Assembly: GCF_001584165.1 (NCBI RefSeq)
Contig: NZ_CP013233.1
Location: forward strand, 2,550,620-2,614,619
Direction of reading: 5' to 3'
Length of the DNA: 64,000 nt
From: Collimonas arenae
GTDB lineage: Bacteria > Pseudomonadota > Gammaproteobacteria > Burkholderiales > Burkholderiaceae_D
The notes under the pieces are model-generated. The model ran no database searches and was not told where the DNA came from. It worked only from the letters and a program-made list of their open reading frames with translations. How positions within the stretch are numbered: position 1 is the stretch's first letter; each line of letters starts with the position of its first letter. The position numbers and the translations under genes were made by a program. This document shows, piece after piece, positions 5,074-23,427 of this stretch.

Positions 5074-5790
5074 CTAGGCATCGCCCAACTGCCTGGACCA
5101 GGCAGACGGTGTGGTTGCCTGCAGGTGAATCTGCTCGATCGATGCCAGCGGGTGCCGACTACACAGTGAGACAGCAAAATCCGGTAACGCGCAAGCCTGC
5201 GCTTGCCATCCTGGACCAGAGGTTTGCCGCACACTTCCCATCACCAGTTCCGGCAGCTCGGGCCGTTCACCGGTGTGCGACATCAGCTTGTACAGCGCTT
5301 CCTTGTCGCTCCATAAACCATAGAATGCCGCAACCTTGTCCGCCTCTGGAAGATTGGATAACCAGCTGCTTTCACCCGCGGAAAAAGCGGCCAGGCCGAC
5401 AGCATCGATATCCCGGCTTGCGTCCAACGCCTCAATATCCAGCCCCAGCGGCGTATCGAGGCTGGTGGCGCAAGCGACCCAGCCGCGGCTGTGCGAAAGA
5501 CTAAACGCGAATTCGCGCTCGACGGACAAAGGGAATGCCATTGGAAACTGCAACAATGGCGCCAGGCCCGGACGCTCGACGATGTCGATCGCGTCAAAAG
5601 CGATACCTACCGCGCGTGAAGCGGCGAACCGCAATAGAACTCGGCCCAGCAGGAATTCCCGCTGTCGGACCCTCCGCACAAACCGCTGGTAGCGCGACAT
5701 TTCCGCATCGCTTAAACAAGCACTCAAAGCTGCCGCATCGGCGTCCGATACGGCATTGGCATCGACCAACCAGAGCACAGCGGAGCGCAT
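5074..5790 (-). CDS. 4'-phosphopantetheinyl transferase (Sfp-type), last gene of the aryl polyene operon
   Basis: 238 residues. It shows the family motifs in order: RQREFLLGRVLLR, FSLSHSRGWVACA, LGLDIEALDASRD and LWSDKEALYKL; the Asp/Glu of GLDIE and the Glu of WSDKEA are Mg/CoA ligands. The enzyme moves phosphopantetheine from CoA to the Ser of acyl carrier proteins. It starts 8 bases after the stop of the ketosynthase gene upstream, so it very likely serves the two ACPs encoded at 20428-20970. It is also the last gene of the operon. Confidence 0.9.
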   Translation of the reverse strand: MRSAVLWLVDANAVSDADAAALSACLSDAEMSRYQRFVRRVRQREFLLGRVLLRFAASRAVGIAFDAIDIVERPGLAPLLQFPMAFPLSVEREFAFSLSHSRGWVACATSLDTPLGLDIEALDASRDIDAVGLAAFSAGESSWLSNLPEADKVAAFYGLWSDKEALYKLMSHTGERPELPELVMGSVRQTSGPGWQAQACALPDFAVSLCSRHPLASIEQIHLQATTPSAWSRQLGDA

Positions 5791-5797
5791 AGACCGG

Positions 5798-7051
5798 TTA
5801 CTCCACCCGCTTGAAGATCAGCGAGGTATTAATGCCGCCGAACGCAAAATTGTTCGACATAAAATACTCGCATTGTAACTCCCTGCCCTGATCGACGATG
5901 TAATCCATCTCGGCGCATAGCGGATCAAGCTGCGTCAGATTGATGGTCGGCGCAAACCAGCCGGAACGCATCATTTCGATACTGGCCCAGGCCTCCAATG
6001 CGCCGCAAGCGCCAAGCGTGTGGCCGGTGTAGCTCTTCAGTGAGCTGATCGGCGTCTGCTGGCCAAAGACCGCAGCGGTTGCGTGGGATTCGGCAATATC
6101 GCCCTGCTCTGTGCCGGTGCCGTGAGCATTGATATAACCGATAGCCGACGCCGGCAGCGCTGCATCGGCGAGCGCCAATGTCATCGCGCCCTGCATCGTG
6201 TCCGCATTCGGATGGGTGACGTGGCAACCGTCGCTGTTGGTGCCAAAGCCGACGATTTCAGCGTAAATTCTGGCGCCACGGGCGCGTGCATGCTCGAAGT
6301 CTTCCAGGATCAGCGTTCCCGCCCCTTCACCGATAACCAGGCCGTCACGGCTGCGGTCAAACGGGCTTGGCGTCATGGCCGGCGCGTCGTTGCGCACGCT
6401 GGTGGCAAACAGGGTATCGAACACCGCCGCCTCGGTGGCGCACAACTCCTCGGCGCCGCCCGCAATCATGACCCGTTGCCGGCCGCTGCGAATCGCTTCG
6501 TAGGCGTAGCCAATGCCCTGGCTGCCTGAGGTGCAGGCGCTGGACGTCGTGATGACGCGGCCGGTAATACCGAAGAACACGCCGATGTTGACCGGCGCGG
6601 TATGCGCCATCATCTTGATATAAGTGGTGGCATTGATGCCGCGCGTGCTGCGCTCTTCCATCATGCGGCCAAAGTCGCCAATCGCCGATGGCGTTCCCGC
6701 AGACGAGCCATAGGCGATGCCGCAGAGGCCGCTTTTCAGCAGCGGATCATCGATCAGGCCGGCGTCGATCAGCGCCAGCTCGCTGGCGCGGGTCGCCATC
6801 AAGGCAACCCGGCCCATGCTGCGGGTGGTCTTGCGATTGTAGCGATCCGACAAGGTGAACTCGGCGGCGGGCGCGCCTAACTGCGTATTCAAGCCATCGT
6901 AATCCGACCACTCATGCATGCGCACCACGGCGTTGCGATAACTGCCAAGGTGCGCGCGGATGCTGGCCCAGTCGTTGCCGATAGGACTGATGCCGGCCAT
7001 GCCGGTCACCGCTACCCGACGCTCCGTTACTTGTGTTACCACGCGCGTCAT
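5798..7051 (-). CDS. apeR: Beta-ketoacyl-ACP synthase (ApeR-like)
   Basis: 417 residues with start ATG at 7051, which overlaps the stop of the ketoreductase gene (ATGA). The same frame stays open up to 7465, but that extension lies inside the ketoreductase gene and is not protein-like. FabF-type motifs are all present: TSSACTSGSQGIGYAY with the active Cys near residue 170, INAHGTGTEQGD and SLKSYTGHTLGACGA (two His). In the known APE pathway, ApeR condenses malonyl-ACP with the growing chain, mainly in early steps. A fully active synthase is expected. Confidence 0.9.
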   Translation of the reverse strand: MTRVVTQVTERRVAVTGMAGISPIGNDWASIRAHLGSYRNAVVRMHEWSDYDGLNTQLGAPAAEFTLSDRYNRKTTRSMGRVALMATRASELALIDAGLIDDPLLKSGLCGIAYGSSAGTPSAIGDFGRMMEERSTRGINATTYIKMMAHTAPVNIGVFFGITGRVITTSSACTSGSQGIGYAYEAIRSGRQRVMIAGGAEELCATEAAVFDTLFATSVRNDAPAMTPSPFDRSRDGLVIGEGAGTLILEDFEHARARGARIYAEIVGFGTNSDGCHVTHPNADTMQGAMTLALADAALPASAIGYINAHGTGTEQGDIAESHATAAVFGQQTPISSLKSYTGHTLGACGALEAWASIEMMRSGWFAPTINLTQLDPLCAEMDYIVDQGRELQCEYFMSNNFAFGGINTSLIFKRVE

Positions 7052-7827
7052 GCCATGCCTCCGTTGACCGAGATCACCTGGCGCGTGATGTACGCGGCAT
7101 CGGTATGCATCAAGAAGGCCACGGTAGCGGCCACTTCGTCCGGCTTGCCGACCCGGCGCGCCGGTATCAGCTTGAGTGCTTCGTCCAGCGGAACGTCGTC
7201 GATCATGTCGGTCTCTATCAAGCCGGGCGCAACGCAATTGACGGTGATGTTCCGCTTCGCCAATTCGATTGCCAACGCCTTGGTGGCGCCGATAATGCCG
7301 GCCTTGGCAGCGCTGTAATTGACCTGGCCGCGATTGCCGATCAGGCCCGAGACTGACGCCATGGTCACGATACGCCCCGGCGCCCGGCGCTGTACCATCG
7401 GCATGACCAGCGGATTGAGCACATTGTAGAAACCGTCCAGATTGGTCTTGAGTACAATATCCCAATCCTCGCCCGGCATCGCCGGAAAAGCATTATCGCG
7501 CGCCACGCCGGCATTGCACACCACGCCGTAGTAACAGCCGTGCTGTTCGACGTCGGCCAGCAGCGCATCTGCGGTTGCCTGGCGCTGACCGATATCGAAT
7601 TGCAATACCCGCGCCTGCGCGCCAATATCCCGCACTGCTTGCGCCACGGCATCTGCCGCAGCGCGTTGCTGGTGACAATGCAAGACAATGTCATAGCCAT
7701 CGCGCGCCAACCGCAGTGCGATGGCTTTGCCGATGCCGCGGCTGGAACCTGTGACCAGGATGGTCTTCCTTGCCACTGCGGCCGCGCTTTCAATAGTGTT
7801 TTCGACAGTATTCAATTGCAAGGTCAT
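7048..7827 (-). CDS. apeQ: 3-ketoacyl-ACP reductase, SDR family (ApeQ-like)
   Basis: 259 residues. Short-chain dehydrogenase with NADPH loop TGSSRGIGKAIAL (about residues 26-38), the NAG sequence CNAGVARDNAFP, the catalytic Tyr/Lys in VNYSAAKAGIIGA and VAPGLIETDM. It reduces the beta-keto group of the ACP-bound polyene chain at each cycle. It overlaps both neighbours by four bases (ATGA junctions with the dehydratase upstream and the ketosynthase downstream), which shows tight coupling. FabG of fatty acid synthesis is the closest relative, but the context assigns it to the pigment pathway. Confidence 0.92.
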   Translation of the reverse strand: MTLQLNTVENTIESAAAVARKTILVTGSSRGIGKAIALRLARDGYDIVLHCHQQRAAADAVAQAVRDIGAQARVLQFDIGQRQATADALLADVEQHGCYYGVVCNAGVARDNAFPAMPGEDWDIVLKTNLDGFYNVLNPLVMPMVQRRAPGRIVTMASVSGLIGNRGQVNYSAAKAGIIGATKALAIELAKRNITVNCVAPGLIETDMIDDVPLDEALKLIPARRVGKPDEVAATVAFLMHTDAAYITRQVISVNGGMA

Positions 7828-8294
7828 TCAGTACTTCCCTCAAGAAAACCAGCCGCATCGGTCGGCTGAAATACGGTAATAGTCGCGCAAGCCAACTGTC
7901 TCTGCGCGTGATGAATCTGGCATTCGAAGGATCCGATGCCGTTGTCGGCCTGCAAGATCTTTTGCACCTGCACCCGCAATACGCTGCCAATCGGGAAGCA
8001 AGGGGCGGCGGCTTCGTAGCGCCGCGTGCCAAGCAGGAAGCCGATTTTGACTGACTCGCCGCGCAGGCGAGCCGCATAGCCCGCGTAGGCGGCAATTGCC
8101 TGCGCCATGTATTCGACACCGACCCAACTGCCGACGCCGTCCGCATTGGCAAACAGGCTGTCCGGCCGAATCACCACCTCCGCGCACAGATCCTCGGCGC
8201 CGACTTCAAGCACTCGATCCAGCAACACCATGGTGCCGGAATGCGGCAACAAATCGCGAATAGCCGGCAGCGTATCTAAACTTGTCTGCATCAT
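7824..8294 (-). CDS. apeP: Hotdog-fold 3-hydroxyacyl-ACP dehydratase (ApeP-like)
   Basis: 156 residues. The N-terminal LLPHSGTMVLLDRVLE resembles the His-containing FabA/FabZ-like motif PH...M.L.D. SWVGVEYMAQAIAAYAG forms the central helix of a hotdog fold. ApeP-type proteins act with ApeI as a pair to dehydrate the 3-hydroxyacyl-ACP to the trans double bond. In this cluster the ApeI partner is the C-terminal domain of the protein at 18060-19832. Two tandem ATGs are possible at the start (8294 and 8291); the first overlaps the stop of the ketosynthase gene upstream. Confidence 0.88.
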   Translation of the reverse strand: MMQTSLDTLPAIRDLLPHSGTMVLLDRVLEVGAEDLCAEVVIRPDSLFANADGVGSWVGVEYMAQAIAAYAGYAARLRGESVKIGFLLGTRRYEAAAPCFPIGSVLRVQVQKILQADNGIGSFECQIHHAQRQLACATITVFQPTDAAGFLEGSTE

Positions 8295-9466
8295 TCCCGC
8301 CCCAACACCAAAGTCGCGTTAGCGCCGCCAAATGCGAACGAATTGCTTAACGCCCAGCGCAAAGGATGTCCCAGGCTGTCGCCGGCGGCAATCAGATTCA
8401 GGTCAGGCAAGCCAGGATCGCGGACGCCGTCCCATAAATGCGGCGGCAGGCGGCCTGCCGGGTTACTGTCCTGCATCGCTATCCAGCACAAGCCGGCTTC
8501 CACTGCCCCGGCGGCTCCCAGTGCATGGCCGGTAAATGGCTTGGTCGAACTGAGGGTAGTGTGCGCGCCGAACAACTCGGCAATGACGCGGCCTTCCATC
8601 GCATCGTTTTGCACGGTCGCCGTGCCATGCAGATTGATGTACTCCACCTGTTTGGCGCTAATCCCGGCACGTGACAATGCTTGTTCAATGGCGCAACGCG
8701 CACCGCCTCCCGCTGGATCAGGGGCGGAAATGTGGTGACCATCGGAGGACTCCCCCCAGCCGCGCAAGGTCACGGTCGAGGCTTCGTTGCTCATCAAAAA
8801 CAAGGCTGCGCCCTCGCCGATATTGATGCCGTTGCGATTGGCGCTAAATGGATTGCAGCGCGCAGCGCTAACCGATTCCAGCGCCGCAAAGCCTGCCACG
8901 GTAAAGGAGCACAAGGAATCTACTCCGCCAGTCAGCACGGCGTCGCACGCGCCCATCCGAATCAGGCGCGCCGCACTGGCGATGGCCTTGCTGCTGGAGG
9001 CGCAGGCGCTGGAATGTACATAGGCTGGGCCGGTAATACCCAGCACGGCTGCCAGCATCGCTGCAGGTGATCCCATCTCTTGTTGCCCATAACTGAACTC
9101 GGCAGGAAACCGGCCGTGCGCGGAACGATGCCGAAATGCCGCTTCGCTTTGCGCGATGCCGGACGTGCTGGTGCCAAGCACGACTGCCACCCGATCCGCG
9201 CCAAAGCGTTCTATCGCGGCATCGACTTGCGGGCGAATTTGCGCCAGCGCCGCCAACGCCAGTTGATTGTTGCGACTGCGCTGTTCAGGCGGCAATTCAT
9301 CAACGCCGGGAAGGATCGCGTCGACACAGCCCAAGGCCAACTCCCGGTCGGCCGAATAGCGCGCCGTTGCGGCGACACCGCTCTCGCCTTCAAAAAGGCG
9401 TCGGCTGATCTCAGCGTGGTTGTCGCCGAGCGGGCAAATCATGCCGAGGTGGTTAAGATAAAGCAT
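8291..9466 (-). CDS. apeO: Beta-ketoacyl-ACP synthase (ApeO-like)
   Basis: 391 residues. Ketosynthase fold with VHSSACASSSKAIASA (active Cys about residue 155), INLHGTATVQNDAMEG and STKPFTGHALGAAGA, so the Cys-His-His set is intact. Spacing and the SACASSS nucleophile context differ from the ApeR-like synthase of this cluster, as expected for ApeO, which forms a heterodimer with the chain length factor ApeC in the characterised APE system. The stop overlaps the dehydratase start. Confidence 0.9.
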   Translation of the reverse strand: MLYLNHLGMICPLGDNHAEISRRLFEGESGVAATARYSADRELALGCVDAILPGVDELPPEQRSRNNQLALAALAQIRPQVDAAIERFGADRVAVVLGTSTSGIAQSEAAFRHRSAHGRFPAEFSYGQQEMGSPAAMLAAVLGITGPAYVHSSACASSSKAIASAARLIRMGACDAVLTGGVDSLCSFTVAGFAALESVSAARCNPFSANRNGINIGEGAALFLMSNEASTVTLRGWGESSDGHHISAPDPAGGGARCAIEQALSRAGISAKQVEYINLHGTATVQNDAMEGRVIAELFGAHTTLSSTKPFTGHALGAAGAVEAGLCWIAMQDSNPAGRLPPHLWDGVRDPGLPDLNLIAAGDSLGHPLRWALSNSFAFGGANATLVLGRE

Positions 9467-9468
9467 GG

Positions 9469-10059
9469 TTATGGCGCAGTGGTTGGTTCGGCAACATCAT
9501 CGCTGACCGATTCAATCGTCAAATGATAGTGATAACGCAAGTTGGTCAGATCAATCTTGCCGCCCCACGGTAATGCCGTACTATAATCGATCACCATCAC
9601 AGGCTCCCCTTGCAGCGACAGCGTGCGCCGCAAACCTTGCTGCTGAATTTCCCAGCCGGTCGGCAACGACTGCCGAATGGCGTCGAGCGGCCACAGTGTC
9701 AATTGCGTATCTTCGAGCACATCTTCGGCACGTACCTGCGACGGCAACATCGGATGTCGCCAGGATTGCAGCGTAACGCCATCATAGTGCAAGGTCAGCA
9801 CGCGCTGGCCGAAAGCCAGCCCGACCATATTGAATTGCTGTGGATCGATTTCCAGCGCCGCATCCAGTTGATCTGTGCGACCGTTGCGTTCGACCGTCAG
9901 ATGCTGCTGCAGGCTGATGCTGGCGCCCAGCGTCGCAGGCGCCAGTTTCAAGCCCAGGCGTGCTGGGGGTGGCGCCGACGGCGTAGCAGCACAGCCGGCC
10001 AGCGCCAGCGCGGCCAACAACGTGCCAAGGCGACGATGAGCCGATCGACCTAGCTGCAT
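9469..10059 (-). CDS. apeN: DUF3261 lipoprotein (ApeN-like)
   Basis: 196 residues with a lipoprotein signal ending LALAGCA (Cys about residue 23), then a mainly beta mature part with LTLHYDGVTLQSW and LRRTLSLQGEPVMVIDY. This matches the DUF3261 lipoproteins found in APE clusters. The molecular role is not established; a part in outer-membrane placement of the pigment together with the LolA-like protein and the MMPL exporter is inferred from co-occurrence. It ends 3 bases before the ApeO-like start and overlaps the flavoenzyme gene by 10 bases. Confidence 0.85.
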   Translation of the reverse strand: MQLGRSAHRRLGTLLAALALAGCAATPSAPPPARLGLKLAPATLGASISLQQHLTVERNGRTDQLDAALEIDPQQFNMVGLAFGQRVLTLHYDGVTLQSWRHPMLPSQVRAEDVLEDTQLTLWPLDAIRQSLPTGWEIQQQGLRRTLSLQGEPVMVIDYSTALPWGGKIDLTNLRYHYHLTIESVSDDVAEPTTAP

Positions 10060-11282
10060 ATTTCCTCCAGCGTCGCCAGGCGCCGTTTGCTTTCCCTGAC
10101 ATAGGGATTGCTTTCGTCCCAGGCGTAACCGGCCAGGATCGCCGCAATCATGCGCCGTACTTCCGGTTGCTGGCGCTCATAGAAAATCACTTTCTGGAAC
10201 CCGCCTGAGTACCAGGATTCGACAAAGGTACGGAAAGCATCCACGCCCTTTTTCAAGGGCGTCGCATACTCGCTCTGCCAATCGACTTCTTCATCGGCAA
10301 ACTGGCGCTTCAATGCCGCCGCGGCGAGGCTGGCCGATTTGACCGCAATGGTAACGCCGGAAGAAAATACCGGATCGAGGAATTCACCGGCGTTGCCGAG
10401 CAAGGCATAGCCCTTCCCCCAGAGCGACTTGACGTTGGCCGAATAACCGACAATCTGCCGCGCCGGCGTGTCCCAGCGCGCATTTTTCAACAGTTCACGT
10501 GAAGCTGGGTCCTGCATGACCAACGTCTGCAAGCGTTCGGTTTCGCTGCCCTTGAACTGCTCCAGGAAAGCGGTTTCCGCCACCACGCCGATTGAGCAAC
10601 GGCCGCCGGCAAATGGAATCAGCCAGTACCAGACATCGCAATGTTCAGGATGCACGGTGATGCGGATCTTGTTTCGATCGAAACCCGGCGTCGCAATGCC
10701 GTCTTCGATATGGGTAAAGATGGCGCCGCGTACCGGGAAATTCGATGGTGTTTCCAATTGCAACAGACGCGGCAGGACGCGGCCAAAGCCGCTGGCATCG
10801 AGCACGAAACCGGCTTCCACCACGTATTCCGTACCGTCTTCACGGCGCACAGTAACGCGCGGTTTGACGCCGCCCTGATCGAACGCCGTCACCGCGTGAC
10901 GGTAACGTACTTCAGCCCCCTGGCGCTCGGCTTCGTTGGCCAGCACCTGGTCGAAATGGGCGCGCTGCACCTGATAGGTGGTACCCCAACCAGCCGAGTG
11001 CTTGTCGCGGAAATCGAAATCGGTGTAGCTGTCGCCGCGGACAAAGGCGGCGCCGTTCTTGAACTGGAACCCGGCTTCGACCACCGCTTGCAGCATGCCC
11101 GCTTCCTGCAGGTATTCCATGCTCTGCGGCAGCAAACTTTCACCGATGCTGAAGCGCGGGAACTGTTCGCGCTCAAGCACCAGCACTTGCCTACCCTGTT
11201 TCAACAATAACGCCGCCGCCACCGCGCCAGCCGGACCGGCGCCGATCACCAACACATCACATTGTTCAACTTGTAATTGCAT
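10050..11282 (-). CDS. FAD-dependent oxidoreductase, flavin-halogenase-like
   Basis: 410 residues. The N-terminal Rossmann motif is VIGAGPAGAVAAALLL (about 12-27), followed by FPRFSIGESLLP, a GEs/tLLP element shared by tryptophan-halogenase and geranylgeranyl-reductase type flavoproteins. At residues 218-223 it reads WYWLIP, which fits the WxWxIP signature of flavin-dependent halogenases. Such enzymes are known in xanthomonadin/APE loci, where the aryl head can be halogenated. Whether this one halogenates, oxidises or reduces the polyene cannot be told from sequence: the halogenase lysine needs alignment to confirm. The start lies inside the 3' end of the exporter gene (17-base overlap). Confidence 0.8.
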   Translation of the reverse strand: MQLQVEQCDVLVIGAGPAGAVAAALLLKQGRQVLVLEREQFPRFSIGESLLPQSMEYLQEAGMLQAVVEAGFQFKNGAAFVRGDSYTDFDFRDKHSAGWGTTYQVQRAHFDQVLANEAERQGAEVRYRHAVTAFDQGGVKPRVTVRREDGTEYVVEAGFVLDASGFGRVLPRLLQLETPSNFPVRGAIFTHIEDGIATPGFDRNKIRITVHPEHCDVWYWLIPFAGGRCSIGVVAETAFLEQFKGSETERLQTLVMQDPASRELLKNARWDTPARQIVGYSANVKSLWGKGYALLGNAGEFLDPVFSSGVTIAVKSASLAAAALKRQFADEEVDWQSEYATPLKKGVDAFRTFVESWYSGGFQKVIFYERQQPEVRRMIAAILAGYAWDESNPYVRESKRRLATLEEICS

Positions 11283-13671: not shown

Positions 13672-14299
13672 GCGCAGCCCCTTCTTCAGCCGTCATCGCG
13701 GTCGGACCGCTTTGCAGGCCGGAGAACGTAATTTCAGTGCGATCGCCGCTGGCCTCATCGATCGTCACGGTCTTGACATAGGCGCCGCCAGTCAGCGCCA
13801 GCGTACCGATGGCCTTGGCTAACGCCGGTTCACGCGCCTTCAGCGCCACCTTCCAGCTATTGCCCTGCACGCTGCCATCCAGTTCAAACAGTTTGTCCAG
13901 CTGGCTCAGATCGCCCGCCAGCAGTGAAAACAACACGCCGTTAATCATGCGCACCACCGGTTCCTGCTTGGCGTCCATGCGCATCGCGACGCGGTCGCCC
14001 TGCATCTGCACAATTTCATCGCGCTTCAGGCGAAGTGTGTTCGGGAAAGGCTGCAAGGTGCGCCACAACACGCCCTTGCCGTTGACCACGCAAAAGCGGC
14101 CGTTGGAAAGCAGTGGCTTCTTGATGCCGACCAGTTGCTTGCTCTGGTCAAAGCGACCGCAAAGTATAGGCGGCCGCGCCAGCATGGCCTGGATCTTGTC
14201 GACCGGCGCTGCGGCGTGCGCCGGCAAACCCGCGCATGCCAGAAGAGCGATCACGGTCAGGCGGCGAGCAGTTCTGATCACTTTGATTAAATGCTTCAT
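13664..14299 (-). CDS. apeL: LolA-like periplasmic carrier (ApeL-like)
   Basis: 211 residues with a Sec signal peptide ending near GLPAHAAAP. The mature part has the half-barrel LolA-type pattern (ILCGRFDQSKQLVG, FCVVNGKGVLWRTLQP, LFSLLAGDLSQLDKLF). LolA carries lipoproteins; LolA-like proteins in APE clusters are thought to carry the polyene lipid across the periplasm. A possible disulfide is offered by two Cys in the mature N-terminal half. The gene overlaps the thioesterase gene upstream by four bases. Confidence 0.85.
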   Translation of the reverse strand: MKHLIKVIRTARRLTVIALLACAGLPAHAAAPVDKIQAMLARPPILCGRFDQSKQLVGIKKPLLSNGRFCVVNGKGVLWRTLQPFPNTLRLKRDEIVQMQGDRVAMRMDAKQEPVVRMINGVLFSLLAGDLSQLDKLFELDGSVQGNSWKVALKAREPALAKAIGTLALTGGAYVKTVTIDEASGDRTEITFSGLQSGPTAMTAEEGAALE

Positions 14300-14736
14300 G
14301 TTTCAACGATTCCCAATTTTTGAAAGAGCACCGGCGGCGAAGCAAAGCACATTTCGCGCGTCGCCATATCCACCGCCACTTGCGTGGTGGTACCGCGCGT
14401 TAGCCGCTGGCCGCTGTGGATATCGGTGATGACATATTCGATCTTCAGGCGATTTTCCCATTCGATGATGTCGGCGCGTACTTTGATGTGCTGGCCGAAA
14501 GTCGCCGGATGCGCATAGCGCAGATGCAGGTCGATCACCGGCCAGCTGTAACCGGATTCCTGCATTTGCGGATAGTTGTAGTTGATCGATTCCAGCAATG
14601 CGCAACGCGCCACTTCCAGATATTTGACGTAATTGCCGTGCCAGACGATTTCCATCGGATCGAGATCATAGAACTGAATCTGCAGTTCGACCTCTGCCGA
14701 CCAGCGGCTGCGCGGTTTGTCTTTTAGCGTGCTCAT
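14296..14736 (-). CDS. apeK: Acyl-CoA/ACP thioesterase, 4HBT hotdog family (ApeK-like)
   Basis: 146 residues. The N-terminal motif QIQFYDLDPMEIVWHGNYVKYLEVAR is the 4-hydroxybenzoyl-CoA thioesterase active-site element with catalytic Asp, here quoted as the stretch near residues 20-45. The rest is a single hotdog domain. In APE pathways ApeK is placed as a thioesterase that may release or proofread acyl-ACP. It is coupled to the LolA-like gene by a four-base overlap and starts 5 bases after the ammonia-lyase stop. Confidence 0.88.
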   Translation of the reverse strand: MSTLKDKPRSRWSAEVELQIQFYDLDPMEIVWHGNYVKYLEVARCALLESINYNYPQMQESGYSWPVIDLHLRYAHPATFGQHIKVRADIIEWENRLKIEYVITDIHSGQRLTRGTTTQVAVDMATREMCFASPPVLFQKLGIVET

Positions 14737-14740
14737 GGCG

Positions 14741-16351
14741 TTACGCGTACAACTGCCAGTGTTTGAGGCGGATGCGCTCCAGCAGCAAGCGCAAATCCGG
14801 CTCCAGCATGCGGTCTTCCTGAATCACGGCAATATCGGCACCCAACTGCTCCATCATGTCTTGCAGATTCTGTTGCGGCTGTGCGGCGCCATCCACGCGA
14901 GAACGTAGCCATACGCCTTGGCGCACGCTGATCAGCAGCGCGGCAACCACCTGCTCGGTCAGCTGCAATACCCGCATGCAGTCGCGAGCGGCAATCGTGC
15001 CCATGCTGACCTTGTCCTGATTATGGCACTCGGTGGAACGCGAAAATACCGACGCCGGCATGGTCTGCTTGAGTGCTTCGGCGGTCCAGGCCGAAGCACT
15101 GATCTGCAAGGCTTTCAAGCCGTGGTTGATGCTGGCGCGCGGCCCTTCGGCGCCCGACAAGTTCGCTGGCAAGCCATGGTTGTAGCGGCTGTCGACCAGC
15201 AACGCCATTTGCCGATCTAGCAGATCGGCAACGTTGGCGACAGCGTTTTTCATGCTATCCATAGCAAATGCAATGTGACCGCCATAGAAGTGGCCGCCAT
15301 GCAGCACGCGCTCATTCTCGGCATCGATGATCGGATTATCGTTGGCGCTGTTCAATTCGTTTTCAATCGATTGCCGCATCCAAGGCAAGGCGTCGGCCAG
15401 CACGCCGATCACGTGTGGCGCGCAACGAATCGAATAGCGGTCTTGCAGGCGCTTCTGGTTACGTGGCGCATCGTCGACCGGCAAATCCTGGCGCAGCCAG
15501 GCCGCAACCTGTTGCTGGCCGCCATGCGGCTTGACGGAGAACAGCGTGGCATCAAAGTGATGGGCGTTGCCATCCAACGCAAAACTGGCCATCGCCGTGA
15601 TCCTGGTTGCGATCTGCACCAGATACTGAGCCCGATCATAGGCCAGGCAGGCCAGCGCCGTCATCACCGCGGTGCCGTTCATGATCGCCAGACCTTCTTT
15701 CGGCCGCAGGCGCAGCGGCGTAATGCCGGCTGCGGCCAGGGCTGCGGCAGCCGGCACCTTGCTGCCGTCACGCCAGACTTCGCGCTCGCCGCACAGTACC
15801 GCCGCGAGATAGGACAGCGGTGTCAGGTCGCCGCTGGCGCCGACCGATCCTTCGGATGGAATCAGCGGCAGCAAATCCTCTTTCAGCAAACGTGCAATCT
15901 GCTCCAGCAGGCCGACACTGACGCCGGAATAACCTTTGCTCAGCGATGCCAGCCGGGCTGCCAGAATGGCGCGCGTCTGCGCCGGGGTGAACAATTCCCC
16001 CAGGCCGCAGCCGTGGTAGGTGTACAAATGATGCGGCAATTCGGCGATGAGTTCCGGCGGTACAGTCACGGTACAGGAATCGCCGTAACCGGTGGTCACG
16101 CCATAGATGGTGCCATCTTCGCGCAGCAGGCGGTCGAGAAAATCGGCGCCGCGGGTAATGGCAGCGCGGAAAGTCGGCTCTTCGGACAGCTTGACCTGCG
16201 CGGCGCCTGATGCGATATCGACAATATCTTCAATCGTCAGTCGGCCCTGGTCAAAACAGACGGCGCGGCGGCGATCAAATGCAGCAGTGGAAGGCGGGTC
16301 TTTCAATTCAGCGAGATGCATCTTGGTATCCAGATAAATGCCAGAAATCAT
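14741..16351 (-). CDS. Aromatic amino acid ammonia-lyase, HAL/PAL/TAL family (MIO enzyme)
   Basis: 536 residues. GSVGASGDLTPLS holds the Ala-Ser-Gly triad (about 172-174) that cyclises to the MIO prosthetic group. The catalytic Tyr loop YGVTTGYGDS (about 83-92) and NDNPIID are also present. It is likely to deaminate Tyr, Phe or His to the unsaturated acid. In a polyene cluster the useful product is 4-coumarate or cinnamate, the aryl starter. The selectivity site reads TYHGCGLGE, which is neither the classical HutH nor the Rhodobacter TAL pattern, so the substrate is open. Start 16351 or the internal ATG 16321; both overlap the acyltransferase gene. Confidence 0.9.
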   Translation of the reverse strand: MISGIYLDTKMHLAELKDPPSTAAFDRRRAVCFDQGRLTIEDIVDIASGAAQVKLSEEPTFRAAITRGADFLDRLLREDGTIYGVTTGYGDSCTVTVPPELIAELPHHLYTYHGCGLGELFTPAQTRAILAARLASLSKGYSGVSVGLLEQIARLLKEDLLPLIPSEGSVGASGDLTPLSYLAAVLCGEREVWRDGSKVPAAAALAAAGITPLRLRPKEGLAIMNGTAVMTALACLAYDRAQYLVQIATRITAMASFALDGNAHHFDATLFSVKPHGGQQQVAAWLRQDLPVDDAPRNQKRLQDRYSIRCAPHVIGVLADALPWMRQSIENELNSANDNPIIDAENERVLHGGHFYGGHIAFAMDSMKNAVANVADLLDRQMALLVDSRYNHGLPANLSGAEGPRASINHGLKALQISASAWTAEALKQTMPASVFSRSTECHNQDKVSMGTIAARDCMRVLQLTEQVVAALLISVRQGVWLRSRVDGAAQPQQNLQDMMEQLGADIAVIQEDRMLEPDLRLLLERIRLKHWQLYA

Positions 16352-17324
16352 AAAAATTGAACCATTGCAGCGGAGCCTTCAGGCAAAAGTGCTCCAGCCT
16401 CGCCGCATAAGCAGCAGCCAGTTCATCGAGAATCTGATCGCGGTTCTTGCGCGGCAGTTGGACCACTTCACGGAACAATTCGAAATGGCATTCGGAGCGG
16501 CCATTCTTGGTCAACGAAAATAACAGATAGACAGGACACTGCAGCAAGCTGGCCAACACATACGGCCCCACCGGAAAAGCAGCGGTTTCACCGAGGAAGG
16601 AAGCGCGCGCCACGCGCGGCGATGGCGACACCGGAATCCGATCGCCGGCAATGGCGACAAATTCACCGCGACTGACTTTCTCCGCCAATATCATCGCGGT
16701 GGCAGGCGTCATCTCGGTCACCTGCATCAGATTCAGCTGGCTTTGCGGGTCAAGCTGCGCCAGCAGACGGTTGAACGCCTGCGCATGTTTGGTGTGCACC
16801 AGTACGGTAATACGCAACGCGCTGCGTTGACGCGACAGCACTCGACATAGTTCAAGATTGCCCAAATGTGCGCAAATCAGCAGCCCGCCGCGCCGTGCCT
16901 CGATGTTTTCCAGCATCTGCTCGCGACCGTACGACACCACATCCGCAGTCTTGAACAAGCCGCCCCACAACAACATCTTGTCGAGAATGTTTTCTGCAAA
17001 AGCGCCAAAGTGCTGGAACACGCCAGGTAAGCCTGGCTGTATGCGGTTTTTGCGCGCTGCCGCCGGATCGTAAGCTTGCAACCGCTGCAGGTACTTCTGC
17101 GACGCCTGCCGCGCCGCCGGTTTGCTGAGCAAGTACCAGCCAAGCACTGGATACAAGGCAATACGAAACGGCCAACGTCCGGCGATCCGGTATATCCAGA
17201 ACAGCAGCCGCATGCCGACCACGAAGCTGGCTTCGTTGATCTGCGCCCAATGGAGCTTGCCTGCGCTCAACGAACACCCCGCGGTGCCAGCAGACGGCGC
17301 CCAAGCAACCGTGGTGCCCGCCAT
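16308..17324 (-). CDS. LpxL/LpxM-type lipid acyltransferase
   Basis: 338 residues as drawn. It resembles lipid A biosynthesis lauroyl/myristoyl acyltransferases: LLICAHLGNLELCRV carries an H(x)4E-like catalytic motif, and VAIAGDRIPVSPSPRVARA and FLGETAAFPVGPYVLA follow. It probably transfers an acyl or polyene acyl chain to a lipid anchor at the inner membrane; membrane-bound aryl polyenes are known to be lipid-linked. The first 18 residues overlap the glycosyltransferase gene and look unlike the family. A TTG at 17270, which overlaps the glycosyltransferase stop, gives a better start (SAGKLHWAQINEASFV). Confidence 0.85.
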   Translation of the reverse strand: MAGTTVAWAPSAGTAGCSLSAGKLHWAQINEASFVVGMRLLFWIYRIAGRWPFRIALYPVLGWYLLSKPAARQASQKYLQRLQAYDPAAARKNRIQPGLPGVFQHFGAFAENILDKMLLWGGLFKTADVVSYGREQMLENIEARRGGLLICAHLGNLELCRVLSRQRSALRITVLVHTKHAQAFNRLLAQLDPQSQLNLMQVTEMTPATAMILAEKVSRGEFVAIAGDRIPVSPSPRVARASFLGETAAFPVGPYVLASLLQCPVYLLFSLTKNGRSECHFELFREVVQLPRKNRDQILDELAAAYAARLEHFCLKAPLQWFNFYDFWHLSGYQDASR

Positions 17325-18073
17325 AACATGCCGAAAAACAAGGTCGCATGCAAGCGCGATATCAGCAGGTTATCGAGACCGGCACGGAAATGTGAAATTC
17401 CGTCCGTCGGATAGGCGACCCGGGTCGGCAGATTGACGATGGCTACACCATCCCAATACAGGCGCACAAGCACTTCAATATCGAAATTCATACGCTCGCC
17501 GAGCTTGGTCCGTTGCACCAGACGCACCAGCGAAGGCAACGGATAGACCCGGAATCCGCACATGGAATCCTTGATATCCAGCGACAAAGTATTGATCCAC
17601 ACCCAAACATGGGTCAAATAACGTGCATACAGGCGCACCGATGGCACGCTATCGTCATATTGCGGGCAACCGGCGATCAGACTCTTAGGCTTGGCGGCGG
17701 CCTGTTGCAGAAAACGTGGAATGTCATCGGTGCAATGCTGACCATCGGCGTCGATCTGCAGCGCATGGGTATAGCCCGCCGTGGCGGCGTACTGGATGCC
17801 GGTCAGCACCGCACCGCCTTTGCCTCGATTGACGGCATGCCGCAGCAAGGTAACCCGGTCTGGATCCGCGGCCGCCAGCGCGTCGAGCACAGCAGCGCAA
17901 GAAGTCGAGCTGGCGTCGTCGACCAATATGCAAGGCAGATCGCGAGCCAGGACTGCGGCCACGACGGCACCGATGGCATGTTCATGGTTGTAGACCGGAA
18001 TTACCGCACATGGCCTGAACGCGGCACGCGGTTGGTTTTGCATGGGCTCGGTCGTGCACTCAGGCTGATGCAT
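17267..18073 (-). CDS. apeJ: Glycosyltransferase family 2 (ApeJ-like)
   Basis: 268 residues from ATG 18073, which overlaps the ligase stop by 14 bases; the frame is open to 18127 but that part lies within the ligase gene. GT-A fold motifs: CAVIPVYNHEHAIGAVV, CILVDDASS, VNRGKGGAVLTGIQYA and the DxD-type ALQIDADGQH. MNFDIEVLVRLYWDG follows. No C-terminal membrane block is seen, so it is a cytosolic or peripheral enzyme like dolichol-phosphate mannosyltransferases. In the cluster it presumably attaches sugar to the lipid anchor of the pigment. Confidence 0.88.
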   Translation of the reverse strand: MHQPECTTEPMQNQPRAAFRPCAVIPVYNHEHAIGAVVAAVLARDLPCILVDDASSTSCAAVLDALAAADPDRVTLLRHAVNRGKGGAVLTGIQYAATAGYTHALQIDADGQHCTDDIPRFLQQAAAKPKSLIAGCPQYDDSVPSVRLYARYLTHVWVWINTLSLDIKDSMCGFRVYPLPSLVRLVQRTKLGERMNFDIEVLVRLYWDGVAIVNLPTRVAYPTDGISHFRAGLDNLLISRLHATLFFGMLWRAPRLLGRRLLAPRGVR

Positions 18074-19832
18074 CAATGACTCCAAATGTGATACGCCCGC
18101 TGGCATGCTGGCCAGCAGCCGATGCAATGCGAAATGTCAGACAATTTTTTTGCGTATCGTTAATCAATTCCAACTGCACCACCATCCCGGGTGTGATCAC
18201 GCGCTGGAATTTCAGCGCCTGCACACCCAGGAATTGCGGCGCCAAGGCGAAGTATGCGCGACCATAGTGGATCGCCCAATCAAGCTGCGCGACGCCGGGC
18301 AAAATGGGAGCGCCGTCGAAATGGCCATTGAAATACAGCAAATCTTTCGGCACAGTCAATTCAAGCAGCACCCGCCCCGCTTCCTGCTCCAATAGCCGCC
18401 GCTCCGGCTTGGTGGGTGGCGCATGCAATGGCTCGCTAGCCGCTGATCGCGGCTCCAGCAAAGCCAGCAGGTCGGCGCGTGTGGTCTTGCCTTGTGCATT
18501 CACAGGCAGCGCATCCAGGTAGCGCCAGCTGCGCGGCAGCGCAATCGCTTCCACAGCGTGGGCTACGCCATCTCGTAACTGTCGATTCAGGGCCAACTTG
18601 CCCTGTGCCACCAACATTTTCCGACCGGCGGCAGAGAGCACGACGAAGGCGGCGATACGTTGACGTTGCTGATCGTCGACGCCATCGAGCAGCAAGACGC
18701 GAGCATCCGTTACCGCCCCAAGCATCTTGAGCTGCCGTTCAATTGCGTCCAGGGAAATACGCTTCTCTTCGACCTTGACGATGCGATCGATTCGGCCTTT
18801 TAACTGGAAACGTTGCTCGTCAACCGCCTGAATCTGATCCGCCATGGCAAACCAGTCCATGTCAGGAAGATGCGGCGAACGTATTTCCAGTACGTTGCCG
18901 ACCGCGCCGATGCGCCATGTAACGGCTGGCATCACCTGCCAGCTGTCATCATTCCCCGCCTCGCGCTGACGCCAGGCAACACCGCCGGTTTCCGAACTGC
19001 CGTACACTTCGACCGGCACAGTACCCAATACGCGTCCGGCCTCCATTGCCACTTCCGGCGGCAATGGGCCACCGGAAGAAAACACTGCTCGGATAGACGA
19101 GAATAAAGATGGACCAGCAGGCAATCGTTTCAGATGAGCCGGACTCGATATCAAGACCGATTGCCGCTCACCTAGCTGGGCCGGCAACTCTTCCAGATAG
19201 CCGAGATGCCGTGCATGAATGACACGTCCGCTGGTCAACGGCCACAATATCTTGAACAACAATCCGTAGATGTGCTGATGCGATACCGTTGCGATAATTT
19301 CGGCCGCGCCAATCCTGGCGCCAAATAATTGTTCAAGTGAGGCGACTTCGGTTGACAGCTGCGCCAGGCATTTCGGCACTGCTTGTGGCTCGCCGGTACT
19401 GCCGGAGGTGTAAATCACTAGCCCCGGGAAATCCGGCAACAACACCTTGAAATCCTGGCTTGTGCTCACATCATCGTTGCTTGCGCAGGCGGCTGGCGCC
19501 AGCGGCAAATACTCGACTGGAAAATCACCCAAATACCCGTCTACCACTGCACTCAGGTTGGCACAGGTAGCCGGCAGCATGTCCCCGGGTAGATAAACGG
19601 TTTTGCCGGCCTGCCATGCACCGAACAAGGCCGCGGCAAAGATAGCGCTATCGGCGCAATACAAGGCAAAGCGTGATCCAGGCTGGAGCAGCAACAAGTC
19701 GCGCCAGGCTGCAACCTGCGCCAGTAGCCAGCGATAGTTCAACACTTCGCCGTCACGCCAGGCAAATGGCTGCTCGCGATCCCCCTCGGAGAGCGCACTC
19801 AACGCAGTCAGCATATTGCGAGTATCAACCAT
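18060..19832 (-). CDS. apeH: Acyl-ACP synthetase fused to a 3-hydroxyacyl-ACP dehydratase domain (ApeH-ApeI fusion)
   Basis: 590 residues. Residues about 1-465 are an adenylate-forming ligase: the P-loop YTSGSTGEPQAVPK (141-154), VYGSSETGGVAWR and LKGRIDRIVKVEEKRI near the hinge. Residues about 480-590 are a separate hotdog domain with YFNGHFDGAPILPGVAQLDW, the FabZ/ApeI-type motif with its catalytic His. In characterised APE clusters these are two genes, apeH (loads the aryl acid onto the ACP) and apeI (dehydratase paired with ApeP). Here they are one open frame without a break. It overlaps the membrane protein gene upstream by 8 bases. Confidence 0.9.
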   Translation of the reverse strand: MVDTRNMLTALSALSEGDREQPFAWRDGEVLNYRWLLAQVAAWRDLLLLQPGSRFALYCADSAIFAAALFGAWQAGKTVYLPGDMLPATCANLSAVVDGYLGDFPVEYLPLAPAACASNDDVSTSQDFKVLLPDFPGLVIYTSGSTGEPQAVPKCLAQLSTEVASLEQLFGARIGAAEIIATVSHQHIYGLLFKILWPLTSGRVIHARHLGYLEELPAQLGERQSVLISSPAHLKRLPAGPSLFSSIRAVFSSGGPLPPEVAMEAGRVLGTVPVEVYGSSETGGVAWRQREAGNDDSWQVMPAVTWRIGAVGNVLEIRSPHLPDMDWFAMADQIQAVDEQRFQLKGRIDRIVKVEEKRISLDAIERQLKMLGAVTDARVLLLDGVDDQQRQRIAAFVVLSAAGRKMLVAQGKLALNRQLRDGVAHAVEAIALPRSWRYLDALPVNAQGKTTRADLLALLEPRSAASEPLHAPPTKPERRLLEQEAGRVLLELTVPKDLLYFNGHFDGAPILPGVAQLDWAIHYGRAYFALAPQFLGVQALKFQRVITPGMVVQLELINDTQKNCLTFRIASAAGQHASGRITFGVIDASA

Positions 19833-20406
19833 GCCGGGAGTCCGCCTGACGATGATGACGCTTGACGATTATCCGCACCAGATATTCGCCGATGAACAAG
19901 ATGCCCATGAGTAGATAGGCCAGTACGCCGTTATACAGCGACCAAACCGCTTCCGATGCCCATCCGGCGGTATAGAGCGCCAACAATCCATTGACGATGA
20001 AGAATCCGCACCATACTTGGGTAACGCGACGCGTGTACGCTACCGCGTAAGCCGGCAGCGCCGGATCGGTCAGGCGCGCCATGCGCTCAATCACCGATGG
20101 CGGCGCATACAAACTGTAAGAAAACACCGCCAGCATGCCAAGATTAACCAGCACCGGATAGAGCTTCAGCGGCAGCAAAGCATTGTTCCAGATGGCTGCG
20201 GCGGCCAGCAATAACGCGCCAGCCAGCCACCAGCGGCTGCTCTTGTTGATTTTCAAGGTCGGCAAGCGAGTAGCCGCCGCCAGCACCAGCAGCAACGCGA
20301 GCAGACGCGGCTCGACCCGGCCATGTCCGAACCAGATCGCGAGCGGATACAGCAAGGTGACGAGCAAGGTCAACACAGTGGGCAGCCAGCGCCTGATATT
20401 CTGCAT
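19825..20406 (-). CDS. apeG: Small integral membrane protein, COG4648 family (ApeG-like)
   Basis: 193 residues with about five to six hydrophobic segments (for example WLPTVLTLLVTLLYPLAIWF, WWLAGALLLAAAAIWNNALL, WCGFFIVNGLLALYTAGW, GVLAYLLMGILFIGEYLV). No catalytic motif is recognisable. Proteins of this type lie next to ACP and ligase genes in aryl polyene clusters and are known only as ApeG. The basic C-terminal tail IVKRHHRQ should face the cytoplasm. It is translationally coupled to the ligase gene. Confidence 0.8.
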   Translation of the reverse strand: MQNIRRWLPTVLTLLVTLLYPLAIWFGHGRVEPRLLALLLVLAAATRLPTLKINKSSRWWLAGALLLAAAAIWNNALLPLKLYPVLVNLGMLAVFSYSLYAPPSVIERMARLTDPALPAYAVAYTRRVTQVWCGFFIVNGLLALYTAGWASEAVWSLYNGVLAYLLMGILFIGEYLVRIIVKRHHRQADSRHG

Positions 20407-20427
20407 CCTGGAGAATAACCCTTGCGC

Positions 20428-20700
20428 TTACTTGGCTTCTTCCGCCAGCAGCGCGGACAGTGCATCGACTACGTCCTGCACTGTCCGGACCGCCTTGAAG
20501 ACATCCGGCTGCAGGCGCTTGCCGGTCAGCTGCTTGAGCTTGACCACCAGGTCGACCGCATCGATGCTGTCGATATCCAGATCGGTATACAAGTTGGCTT
20601 GCGGCGTCACCTTATCTTTGTCGATCTCGAACATGTCATGCAGCACATCCACCAGCCACAGATAAATTTGTTCCTTGCTCATTGAAGCTGTCAACATCAT
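20428..20700 (-). CDS. apeF: Acyl carrier protein (ApeF-like)
   Basis: 90 residues with the phosphopantetheine site DLDIDSIDAVDLVVKL, where the Ser of DSID is modified. This is the second of two adjacent ACPs. Starts at ATG 20700 and at 20682 (MSKEQIYLWL) are both possible; the shorter one matches ACP length better. In the APE system the two ACPs have different tasks, starter loading versus extension. Confidence 0.92.
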   Translation of the reverse strand: MMLTASMSKEQIYLWLVDVLHDMFEIDKDKVTPQANLYTDLDIDSIDAVDLVVKLKQLTGKRLQPDVFKAVRTVQDVVDALSALLAEEAK

Positions 20701-20709
20701 GTCACACCG

Positions 20710-20970
20710 TCATTTCTTTCTATTGCTGGCAATCATCGCGGCTAGCGTTCGTACCGAAGCAAAATGGTTACGTGTCTCAGCCGAATCGGCCGATAATGAA
20801 ATCCCGTAGCGTTTCTGAATCGCCACGCCCAGTTCAAGTGCATCAATCGAGTCGAGGCCAAGGCCATCCACGAACAAAGGGGCATCGGTAACAATATCCG
20901 CCGGCGTCATATCTTCCAACTGCAGGACATCAATGATGACCTGTTTGACTTCCTCTTCAAGCTGCTGCAT
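20710..20970 (-). CDS. apeE: Acyl carrier protein (ApeE-like)
   Basis: 86 residues, acidic, with the phosphopantetheine attachment site GLGLDSIDALELGVAI. It overlaps the acyltransferase gene by 14 bases and is followed 9 bases later by the second ACP gene. It should be primed by the Sfp-type transferase at the far end of the operon (5074-5790). Confidence 0.92.
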   Translation of the reverse strand: MQQLEEEVKQVIIDVLQLEDMTPADIVTDAPLFVDGLGLDSIDALELGVAIQKRYGISLSADSAETRNHFASVRTLAAMIASNRKK

Positions 20971-21739
20971 TGACTTGACTTTCCTTCCTAAAATAATCCT
21001 GCAAATAGGCGGTTAAATGCCTCGCCGCCATCACTTCGCTACCGCTGTCGGCAATAAATCCGCTGACGTCAATATCATCTTTCACCTCGATGCTGAAATG
21101 CGCCATCACTGGCGGCACCTGCCACCATTTGACGCCCTTGCCCAACGTCGGCGGCAGGCAGCGAATCACCACCGGCGTCACATTCGACATGCTGCGCACG
21201 GCGATGTTAGCGGCACCGCGCTTCAGGTTGATCTGGCCGTCGCCGGCAGTCCGCGTACCTTCGGGGAAAATAATCAGGTTGCTGCCGCGCCGCAGTGAAG
21301 TGATGCAGTCGTCCAGCAAGCCGTTGCCATCATCGTCGTTGCTGATATATCCGGCGGCGCACACCGGACCGCGCGTGAAAGGGTTGTCCCAGAGGCGTCC
21401 CTTGACGATGCAATCGGCGCGTTTGACGAAGGCCATCAGGAATACCGTATCAATCAGCGTCGGATGGTTGGCCAGGATCAGCAAACCTCGCCGTTCCAGC
21501 CGCTCCAATCCACTGATATCGTAGTTCAACACGCCAATCCTGCGCATGAAACCGACAAACGCGCGAAACACCAACCGAATCACGCGCCGCGCCACCATCA
21601 CGCGTAATTGTCGCTCCCAGATCAGCAGATTCAAAACAGGGAAAACCGACACGCGCAGGATCAGTCCGCCAACTGCAAATACAACAAAGCTGACTCCGGT
21701 AGCAATGACGCGCCAATGACGATTCAAGCGATTAAGCAT
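20957..21739 (-). CDS. apeD: PlsC-type 1-acylglycerol-3-phosphate acyltransferase-like protein (ApeD-like)
   Basis: 260 residues. An N-terminal hydrophobic region (about 10-40) precedes the PlsC motifs: LILANHPTLIDTVFL (HxxxxD), IIFPEGTRTAGDG and a third block with ANIAVRSMSNVTPVVI. It probably moves the ACP-bound polyene onto a lipid or glycerol acceptor at the inner face of the membrane. It overlaps the chain length factor gene by 8 bases. Confidence 0.88.
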   Translation of the reverse strand: MLNRLNRHWRVIATGVSFVVFAVGGLILRVSVFPVLNLLIWERQLRVMVARRVIRLVFRAFVGFMRRIGVLNYDISGLERLERRGLLILANHPTLIDTVFLMAFVKRADCIVKGRLWDNPFTRGPVCAAGYISNDDDGNGLLDDCITSLRRGSNLIIFPEGTRTAGDGQINLKRGAANIAVRSMSNVTPVVIRCLPPTLGKGVKWWQVPPVMAHFSIEVKDDIDVSGFIADSGSEVMAARHLTAYLQDYFRKESQVNAAA

Positions 21740-22487
21740 GACGCTCCCAGCGCCAGCGACGCGAATCGACCGTATGCAACAGTTCGCGGTCGCCCCGCAG
21801 ATAAAAGGCTAGCACCTCCAATCCGCCAGGTTGCAACTCAGTCGACGTTGCCGCAACGTCCTGCGTATCGGAATTCCCCCAGGACAGCGAGATCGTATCA
21901 GCAGCATTTCCCGACGCCGGCTGCATCAGCCATGCCCAGGCAAACGGCTGCTCCTGGCAGTCTTGAAACGCATGGAACACCTCCGGCAATACGCCGTCAT
22001 AGACCACCAGCAGTACTGAAGGCGCACCGTCAGCGAGCAGGCCGCAGGCCTCAATCACTGCATGCTCGACCCCACCATGTCCGGCGGCCAAGGCTGAGTG
22101 GCTGGCCCGGTCGTGACGGGCGATTGAAAACAAGCCAGCGGCAGCATTATGTACCGACAAGCTGAAACCGGCCGGGGACAATGGCAGTCCCTGCGCCAGG
22201 TCCGACAGCAACTCCACCGAGCGCGTACATTCGCCGTGACGTGAACAGAATATGGTAGGTATAGAAGTTTGCCCGTCAAGGCAACAATAGGCGACTTCAA
22301 GGGCCATTTTGCCGACAAATCCCGCTCGTCGACGCAACATGGCCGGCATGGACGAAACTGCGGCGTCGGCTTGGCCCGCAATCGTGAATGGGTTGCGAGC
22401 CCATGCCTGCCAGGCTGCCTCGGTATCCAGACCGGGCGCCCATGCCGCATGAGATGCAACTGAAAAACTGACTCCCCGGTACTTCAT
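21732..22487 (-). CDS. apeC: Beta-ketoacyl synthase chain length factor (ApeC-like), first gene of the operon
   Basis: 251 residues from ATG 22487, which has GGAGAG upstream; a TTG at 22502 is the longest possible start. It matches the N-terminal half of a ketosynthase, about 250 instead of 400 residues. The site that holds the nucleophilic Cys in true synthases reads LSVHNAAAGLFSIA, with Asn in place of Cys, so it cannot condense by itself. In the known APE system ApeC pairs with ApeO and sets chain length. As first gene of the run it should be preceded by the operon promoter. Confidence 0.88.
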   Translation of the reverse strand: MKYRGVSFSVASHAAWAPGLDTEAAWQAWARNPFTIAGQADAAVSSMPAMLRRRAGFVGKMALEVAYCCLDGQTSIPTIFCSRHGECTRSVELLSDLAQGLPLSPAGFSLSVHNAAAGLFSIARHDRASHSALAAGHGGVEHAVIEACGLLADGAPSVLLVVYDGVLPEVFHAFQDCQEQPFAWAWLMQPASGNAADTISLSWGNSDTQDVAATSTELQPGGLEVLAFYLRGDRELLHTVDSRRWRWERHA

Positions 22488-22809
22488 TTCACAACTCTCC
22501 AACGCCCATTGAATCGATCTTCATGTCCTGCCAACAATCTAGGGAGTTGAGCCGACTATTATTTTTATAATTCTTTACATTTCGGGCGGCATTATAAACT
22601 ATATGCCACACGGAAATGTTGCAAACAACACACGATCACCTCGATTACATTGCCGCCCCTGTTTTCCTATGAAAACCTGCAGCAAAAACAGTTCCCGACC
22701 ATACAGTTCACGCTCGCGGCGGCTAACGGCACGGCGGAATATACAGCAAGTTTTGGCATTACAATATGTCACAAAACCCGAAAAAACGATCGATTTCAAC
22801 ACATTTTGA
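22488..22809. promoter_or_regulatory. Upstream region of the aryl polyene operon, AT-rich, probable promoter
   Basis: About 320 bases without a gene between the operon start and the galE relic. On the minus strand a perfect TATAAT (22591-22596) lies about 100 bases before the apeC ATG, but no good -35 TTGACA is found 16-18 bases upstream of it. The stretch 22555-22600 is strongly AT-rich against GC-rich flanks. The promoter call is an inference; no operator palindrome stands out. Confidence 0.35.
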
Positions 22810-23411: not shown

Positions 23412-23427
23412 GAGACGGCAAGCCGAT

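Follow-up and report, generated by a model that had tools for sequence, protein, structure and literature searches.

Few bacterial pigments are as widespread as the aryl polyenes (APEs), and the locus described here raises the question of whether an APE operon can depart from the known gene set and, if so, what this says about the head group of its product. The locus lies in a 64,000-nt stretch of the Collimonas arenae genome, referred to as the window (C1:2550620-2614619 of a one-contig genome of 4.72 Mb), where 19 open frames, all on the minus strand and running from 22487 to 5074, make up a complete APE operon. Judged by its genes, this operon is an ordinary member of a widespread APE subfamily that carries an aromatic amino acid ammonia-lyase, and its gene set is not unusual. 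Within the subfamily, a halogenase-like flavoenzyme and the methyltransferase ApeB strongly, but not strictly, alternate. This alternation might be the one result that specialists would not expect.

Window genes were compared by blastp with the ape genes of E. coli CFT073, a cluster that has been dissected genetically (c1186-c1204; gene roles as in Table 1 in the available part of PMC8253772), which is the basis of the percentages given for individual genes, and domains were assigned with Pfam and NCBIfam. Every E. coli gene from apeC to apeR was matched by a window gene. Counterparts of apeA and apeB were absent from the operon, and no ApeB homologue was found anywhere in the genome at E ≤ 1e-20. 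The operon pairs an ApeO ketosynthase with a cysteine-less ApeC and has two acyl carrier proteins (ACPs), a ligase, a ketoreductase (KR) and ApeI/ApeP dehydratases (DHs), together with ApeD, J, K, L, M, N and G for attachment and export, ApeJ being present as two genes. These features leave very little doubt that this is an APE-type pigment operon, and its product is very probably a yellow membrane pigment of a type common in bacteria. The operon is beyond chance, because the same gene order recurs in dozens of species. A preliminary description had proposed 19 one-direction genes of APE type that keep roles C to R, lack a methyltransferase, and add the lyase, an LpxL-type acyltransferase, the flavoenzyme and a phosphopantetheinyl transferase; all of this was borne out except for the acyltransferase. 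The LpxL-type protein is not an added role, because it is the C-terminal half of a split ApeJ: residues 5-242 of ApeJ match the family 2 glycosyltransferase (GT2) of the window at 56%, and residues 249-556 match the LpxL-type protein at 42%.

To place the operon among its relatives, named genome contigs were scanned with the window lyase. At least 583 relatives were recovered and the best 80 loci (L054-L133) were kept, a sample picked by similarity to this lyase, in which 64 loci are complete, spanning ApeC to ApeR. The lyase is in an APE cluster at 75 of the 80 (the exceptions are L070, L075, L110, L111 and L129) and directly between ApeJ and ApeK at 72; the other APE-cluster cases are L077, L108 and the cut locus L125. 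The gene order is kept across Beta- and Gammaproteobacteria and at four Myxococcota loci, and was found in Oxalobacteraceae, Stenotrophomonas, Pseudoxanthomonas, Iodobacter, Archangium and others. Where both halves of ApeJ were found, they occupy separate frames at 72 of 74 loci and are fused at two (L130 and L133). The nearest named loci are those of Collimonas sp. OK307 and C. antrihumi; L054 is 84% identical over five joined core proteins. Among the same-genus genomes searched, 13 of 14 have the lyase at 90% identity or more (one match being shorter), and it is absent from one, a 1.7 Mb genome.

A broader view came from 398 genomes drawn evenly from the phylum, where an ApeO score above the NF006618 cut-off served as a proxy for an APE cluster. 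Such an ApeO was found in 88 genomes and the lyase (E ≤ 1e-80) in 42, all of which are among the 88. At all 28 loci taken from this sample (L026-L053), GT2, LpxL, lyase, thioesterase and LolA genes follow in the same order. That APE clusters can contain a lyase has been published before: the available part of a 2018 Pseudomonas paper (PMC5851621) mentions ammonia lyase genes in its APE cluster, which is compared there with the V. fischeri cluster.

We then asked which head-group genes accompany the lyase. Among the 64 complete loci, 46 carry the flavoenzyme only, 15 carry ApeB only, one carries both and two carry neither. A quick tree of five joined core proteins was built for 66 rows (the 64 loci, the E. 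coli cluster and the window), and 11 independent pairs differing in the flavoenzyme were taken from it. ApeB differed in the opposite direction in eight of these pairs, in the same direction in none, and showed no difference in three (sign test, p = 0.0078). The flavoenzyme lies between ApeM and ApeN at 47 of the 48 loci with flanks found. ApeB occupies this same slot at six loci (two from Paucibacter, two from Burkholderiales metagenome-assembled genomes (MAGs), and one each from Ideonella and Microbulbifer) and a slot between ApeHI and GT2 at eight loci, from Massilia, Janthinobacterium and an Undibacterium MAG. The methyltransferase of L108 was counted outside the ApeHI-GT2 slot, as its second GT2 match lies beyond the cluster.

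The same pattern was looked for genome-wide in 62 lyase-bearing genomes, namely the 42 from the phylum sample together with 20 closer relatives. Here the flavoenzyme alone was found in 44 and ApeB alone in six. Several points weigh against reading the alternation as a strict rule. Seven of the 62 genomes have both enzymes and five have neither; the tree is a quick one with five long end branches; the 64 loci on it were selected by lyase similarity; and 29 of the 46 ApeO-positive genomes without the lyase match neither enzyme. The other genomes of this last group divide into 12 with a flavoenzyme match (10 at 48% identity or more, one of these far from ApeO) and five with an ApeB match (two partial), with none having both. 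Strict mutual exclusion was considered and is ruled out: six of the seven genomes with both enzymes belong to one Vibrio-like genus, where the two genes stand side by side, divergent from the lyase. Both enzymes can therefore occur in one pathway. A further, seventh member of this genus has ApeB only, and in the remaining genome with both enzymes ApeB is on another contig. For two of the five genomes with neither, the lyase is outside an APE cluster. The operon itself was seen for one Vibrio-like genome (L141), where a block of three genes, homologues of ApeA, ApeB and the flavoenzyme (15401-18138), is divergent from it. No description of the alternation was found in a partial coverage of the literature on aryl polyenes with halogenase, ammonia lyase and coumarate.

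These counts do not bear out the earlier view of an unusual gene set, since most of the best lyase loci are in APE clusters and most of the complete ones have the flavoenzyme without a methyltransferase. The suggestion of a new head-group variant fared better in part: such a variant is possible and gains some support from the alternation, but a large clade would have it in common, and this pigment family has known halogenated members, the brominated xanthomonadins.

What the flavoenzyme does can be approached through the enzyme it replaces. ApeB is assigned head-group methylation in the available part of PMC8253772, and the family nearest to the E. coli protein is that of the FlxJ methyltransferase (470 bits, below the cut-off of 560). 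Because the flavoenzyme repeatedly replaces this head-group methyltransferase, it most likely tailors the head group too, and we hold this with fair confidence. The window protein (10050..11282) is a PF04820 flavoprotein with WxWxIP, FQFK and FLDPVFSSG motifs. Its closest solved relative is 3nix (E = 2.3e-110), followed by the halogenases 3e1t, 8zop, 5bul and CmlS. A GESLLP stretch, the lysine of FQ[YFH]K, WxWxIP and FLDPxFSSG are kept in all 50 flavoenzymes compared (the window and 49 loci). We take WxWxIP and the active-site lysine to be motifs of flavin-dependent halogenases.

A further indication comes from the xanthomonadin-type cluster of X. bonasiae. This genome has only one flavoenzyme homologue at 1e-20, with 34-35% identity and the same motifs, and it is found among KR, DH, MMPL, LolA, LpxL, ACP and ligase genes, adjoining a chorismatase match. 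The available part of PMC3691225 reports a halogenase gene and brominated pigments for Xanthomonas clusters, whereas the Lysobacter cluster is without the gene and its pigment without a bromine pattern. Tailoring specifically by halogenation would be about as probable as all other outcomes taken together.

The most probable rival keeps the same APE pigment and has the flavoenzyme act on the head group or the polyene by hydroxylation or some other oxidation. Oxidations other than halogenation may be catalysed by flavoproteins that have these motifs; the best NCBIfam match of the window protein is the CmlS halogenase at 164 bits, far below the cut-off of 900, in a list that includes monooxygenases and reductases; and 3nix is described merely as a flavoprotein/dehydrogenase. 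Set against this are the halogenase-type residues kept in all 50 proteins and the homologue in the xanthomonadin-type cluster, so that we consider such an oxidation a substantial possibility of rather less than even probability.

The second question concerns the ring itself. The lyase (14741..16351) keeps an intact ASG (4-methylideneimidazole-5-one, MIO) motif and is 62-83% identical to ten other aligned members of its family, but only 34% identical to the HutH encoded in the same genome, a protein that scores above both HutH cut-offs (731 bits). When the two were aligned, the NQED of HutH corresponded to HNQD in the lyase, the HutH glutamate being replaced by glutamine. We take this glutamate to be the active-site glutamate of histidine ammonia-lyases (HALs). 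At the position pair that presumably governs the substrate choice of ammonia-lyases, the window enzyme has Tyr-His and HutH has Ser-His; the 11 aligned members divide into four with Tyr-His and seven with Phe-His. The lyase thus differs from a HAL in its active-site residue, in this pair and in its curated score. Among solved structures, tyrosine aminomutases come nearest to it. The database names given to close homologues range from histidine ammonia-lyase through HAL/PAL/TAL family to, for some UniRef entries, tyrosine ammonia-lyase (TAL), and all are automatic labels. A His-Leu pair as in TAL was at first read in the lyase, but this was rejected as a misalignment, with realignment showing Tyr-His.

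The likeliest role of the lyase here would be the supply of 4-coumarate, because it has no HAL glutamate, no XanB2-type chorismatase is found in the genome, and an X. bonasiae relative lies beside a ligase and a polyketide synthase. The chorismatase search, negative for this genome, was positive in two of six genomes (X. bonasiae and S. rhizophila). In the X. bonasiae case (L110:7427-19014), a lyase of the APE clade has as its neighbours a type I polyketide synthase of 1843 residues, an AMP ligase, a thioesterase and a FabD/nitronate-monooxygenase-type protein, and the same lyase family seems to have been recruited there as starter supplier of a different polyketide. Two same-family genomes (G017 and G026; L142:10311-13548 and L143:9515-12823) have the lyase outside any APE cluster, adjoining an AMP-ligase-like gene. 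The best NCBIfam match of the window ligase, 4-coumarate ligase, was dropped as support, as E. coli ApeH matches the same model best.

Other observations count against a 4-coumarate starter. The lyase is without the His-Leu pair, which we take to set selectivity in Rhodobacter TAL. Of the NCBIfam models it matches HutH best, at 403 bits where 524 would be needed, and it scores under every curated lyase cut-off. Moreover, at five of the best 80 loci, all from Stenotrophomonas (L081, L084 at 2755-3807, L107, L112 and L125; domain confirmed), a XanB2-type chorismatase lies beside the lyase cluster, divergent from apeC. The lyase therefore need not be the starter source everywhere, and two starter routes may coexist at these loci. 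The rival that gains from this has 4-hydroxybenzoate made from chorismate as the starter, as in E. coli and Xenorhabdus, and the lyase doing another job, such as deaminating Phe or His or making a diffusible phenolic. According to the available part of PMC8253772, 4-hydroxybenzoate is used or predicted in the E. coli and Xenorhabdus clusters, and 46 of the 88 ApeO-positive genomes of the phylum sample are without such a lyase. However, the near-constant position of the lyase between ApeJ and ApeK speaks for a role in the pathway, and histidine deamination is disfavoured by the missing HAL glutamate and by the genome's own HutH. The five Stenotrophomonas loci make the starter step less probable and this rival more so; a cinnamate-type starter supplied by the lyase is the somewhat favoured reading, and the 4-hydroxybenzoate route is unlikely but still to be reckoned with.

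With a lyase-derived starter as the preferred reading, the individual genes can be arranged into a pathway. The ammonia-lyase would deaminate tyrosine to 4-coumarate. This would be loaded on an ACP of the ApeE (20710..20970; 62% to ApeE) or ApeF type (20428..20700; 52%) by a fused ApeH-ApeI protein (18060..19832), in which domain matches and homology identify an AMP-forming acyl-ACP ligase and an ApeI-type dehydratase, the carrier being activated by the co-encoded 4'-phosphopantetheinyl transferase (5074..5790; domain-model matches). Extension to a conjugated polyene would follow as in E. coli. The ApeO-like ketosynthase (8291..9466; 47%) has the cysteine and both histidines and scores 488 bits with NF006618 (cut-off 407), and its predicted partner is the ApeC-like chain-length factor (21732..22487; PF13723; 30%), which has the motif VHNAAAG and is missing the active-site cysteine. 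They would act with the ApeR-like ketosynthase (5798..7051; 63%), whose frame extends back to 7465 but for which the ATG at 7051 fits, the ApeQ-like KR (7048..7827; 57%), and the ApeI and ApeP-like dehydratases (the latter at 7824..8294; PF22817; 33%). The flavoenzyme would halogenate the phenol ring where other clusters use ApeB.

Attachment of the polyene acid to a lipid is predicted to involve the ApeK-like thioesterase (14296..14736; 56%), the ApeD-like lysophospholipid-type acyltransferase (20957..21739; NHPTLID motif; 42%) and the split ApeJ pair. In this pair, the GT2 frame (17267..18043) extends back to 18127, with the ATG at 18043 fitting the ApeJ alignment, and the LpxL-type frame (16308..17270) starts with TTG at 17270, an alternative ATG being at 17324. 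The ApeM-like MMPL exporter (11266..13671; 30%), the ApeL-like LolA-type carrier (13664..14299; 26%) and the ApeN-like DUF3261 lipoprotein (9469..10059; 30%) would then carry the product to the outer membrane, where it may act as an antioxidant pigment. The remaining gene encodes an ApeG-like membrane protein (19825..20406; 55% over 99 residues), the only product of the 19 that Pfam does not name and that was recognised through its homology to E. coli ApeG.

With the chosen starts, 12 of the 18 gene junctions overlap and six have gaps of 2-21 bases. The GT2 and LpxL frames overlap by 58 bases; with TTG 17270 as the LpxL start, a codon overlapping the stop of GT2, the overlap is four bases. The first frame begins with the ATG at 22487, and a TTG is also present at 22502. 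Upstream of it, a promoter-like site (22598..22625, minus strand) is a weak consensus match; the scanned stretch yielded 13 sites, compared with a mean of 8.8 after shuffling. Two to three short overlapping frames on the plus strand (22766-23616), the first resembling part of a GDP-mannose dehydratase/epimerase, are possibly a decayed gene. They are followed by a TetR-type regulator (PF13972; 23861-24526, plus strand), upstream of and divergent from the operon, then by a Cys/Met-metabolism enzyme and an amidotransferase/phosphoribosyltransferase. The downstream neighbour of the operon is surE.

Overall, the gene set suggests that the pigment ring comes from an aromatic amino acid and that a halogen may take the place of a methyl group on it. 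Taken loosely, the whole chain, an aryl polyene lipid primed with coumarate and possibly halogenated on its ring, is in our view as probable as its opposite. More tentatively, and at somewhat less than even probability, the lyase-containing APEs would form a large pigment subfamily with a halogenated ring derived from 4-coumarate, in which the flavin halogenase and ApeB are interchangeable in one role, that of tailoring the head group. About eight independent swaps would have occurred, and whether a pigment is halo- or methyl-substituted could be predicted from gene content. The window locus taken alone is ordinary. If the two enzymes are alternatives, however, one gene could predict the head group of many uncharacterised clusters, and the halogen/methyl swap is directly and cheaply testable by isotope pattern.

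Other pigment systems share part of this organisation. That the operon belongs to another pigment class, either true xanthomonadins or polyenes of the flexirubin/arcuflavin type that form an ester with a dialkylresorcinol, is very improbable: the core genes are shared and an ammonia-lyase is also part of the flexirubin pathway (FlxA model), but the genome has no match to the dialkylresorcinol gene DarB of flexirubin/arcuflavin clusters at E ≤ 1e-30 (a cut-off used without a control) and none to XanB2, and the gene order is that of APE clusters. With flexirubin/arcuflavin clusters the window operon has the polyene core in common, and flexirubin has a tyrosine lyase, FlxA (so named by its model). 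The KR, DH, MMPL, LolA, LpxL, acyltransferase, ACP and flavoenzyme genes of the X. bonasiae xanthomonadin-type cluster are related to window genes. In Xanthomonas and Lysobacter, xanthomonadin clusters make 3-hydroxybenzoate with XanB2 (available parts of PMC3691225 and PMC3949708), a feature of these clusters that the window genome lacks.

The E. coli CFT073 APE cluster shares roles C to R and their order with the window. It differs in having ApeA and ApeB, a fused ApeJ and separate ApeH and ApeI, whereas in the window ApeH and ApeI are fused and ApeJ is split. The lyase, the flavoenzyme and the phosphopantetheinyl transferase are present in the window operon and not in the E. coli cluster, which is without a dedicated phosphopantetheinyl transferase and can be served by the orphan AcpT (available part of PMC8253772). 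The closest likeness is to the APE clusters with a lyase among L054-L133, those of Collimonas, Glaciimonas, Herbaspirillum, Stenotrophomonas, Pseudoxanthomonas and Archangium, which have the gene set and order of the window. Some lyase-containing clusters have ApeB instead of the window-type flavoenzyme. The phosphopantetheinyl transferase at the 3' end is shared mainly with an Oxalobacteraceae-like clade, where 17 of the 22 loci that extend to ApeR have it, and most lyase-containing clusters have the lyase between ApeJ and ApeK and the flavoenzyme between ApeM and ApeN, as in the window.

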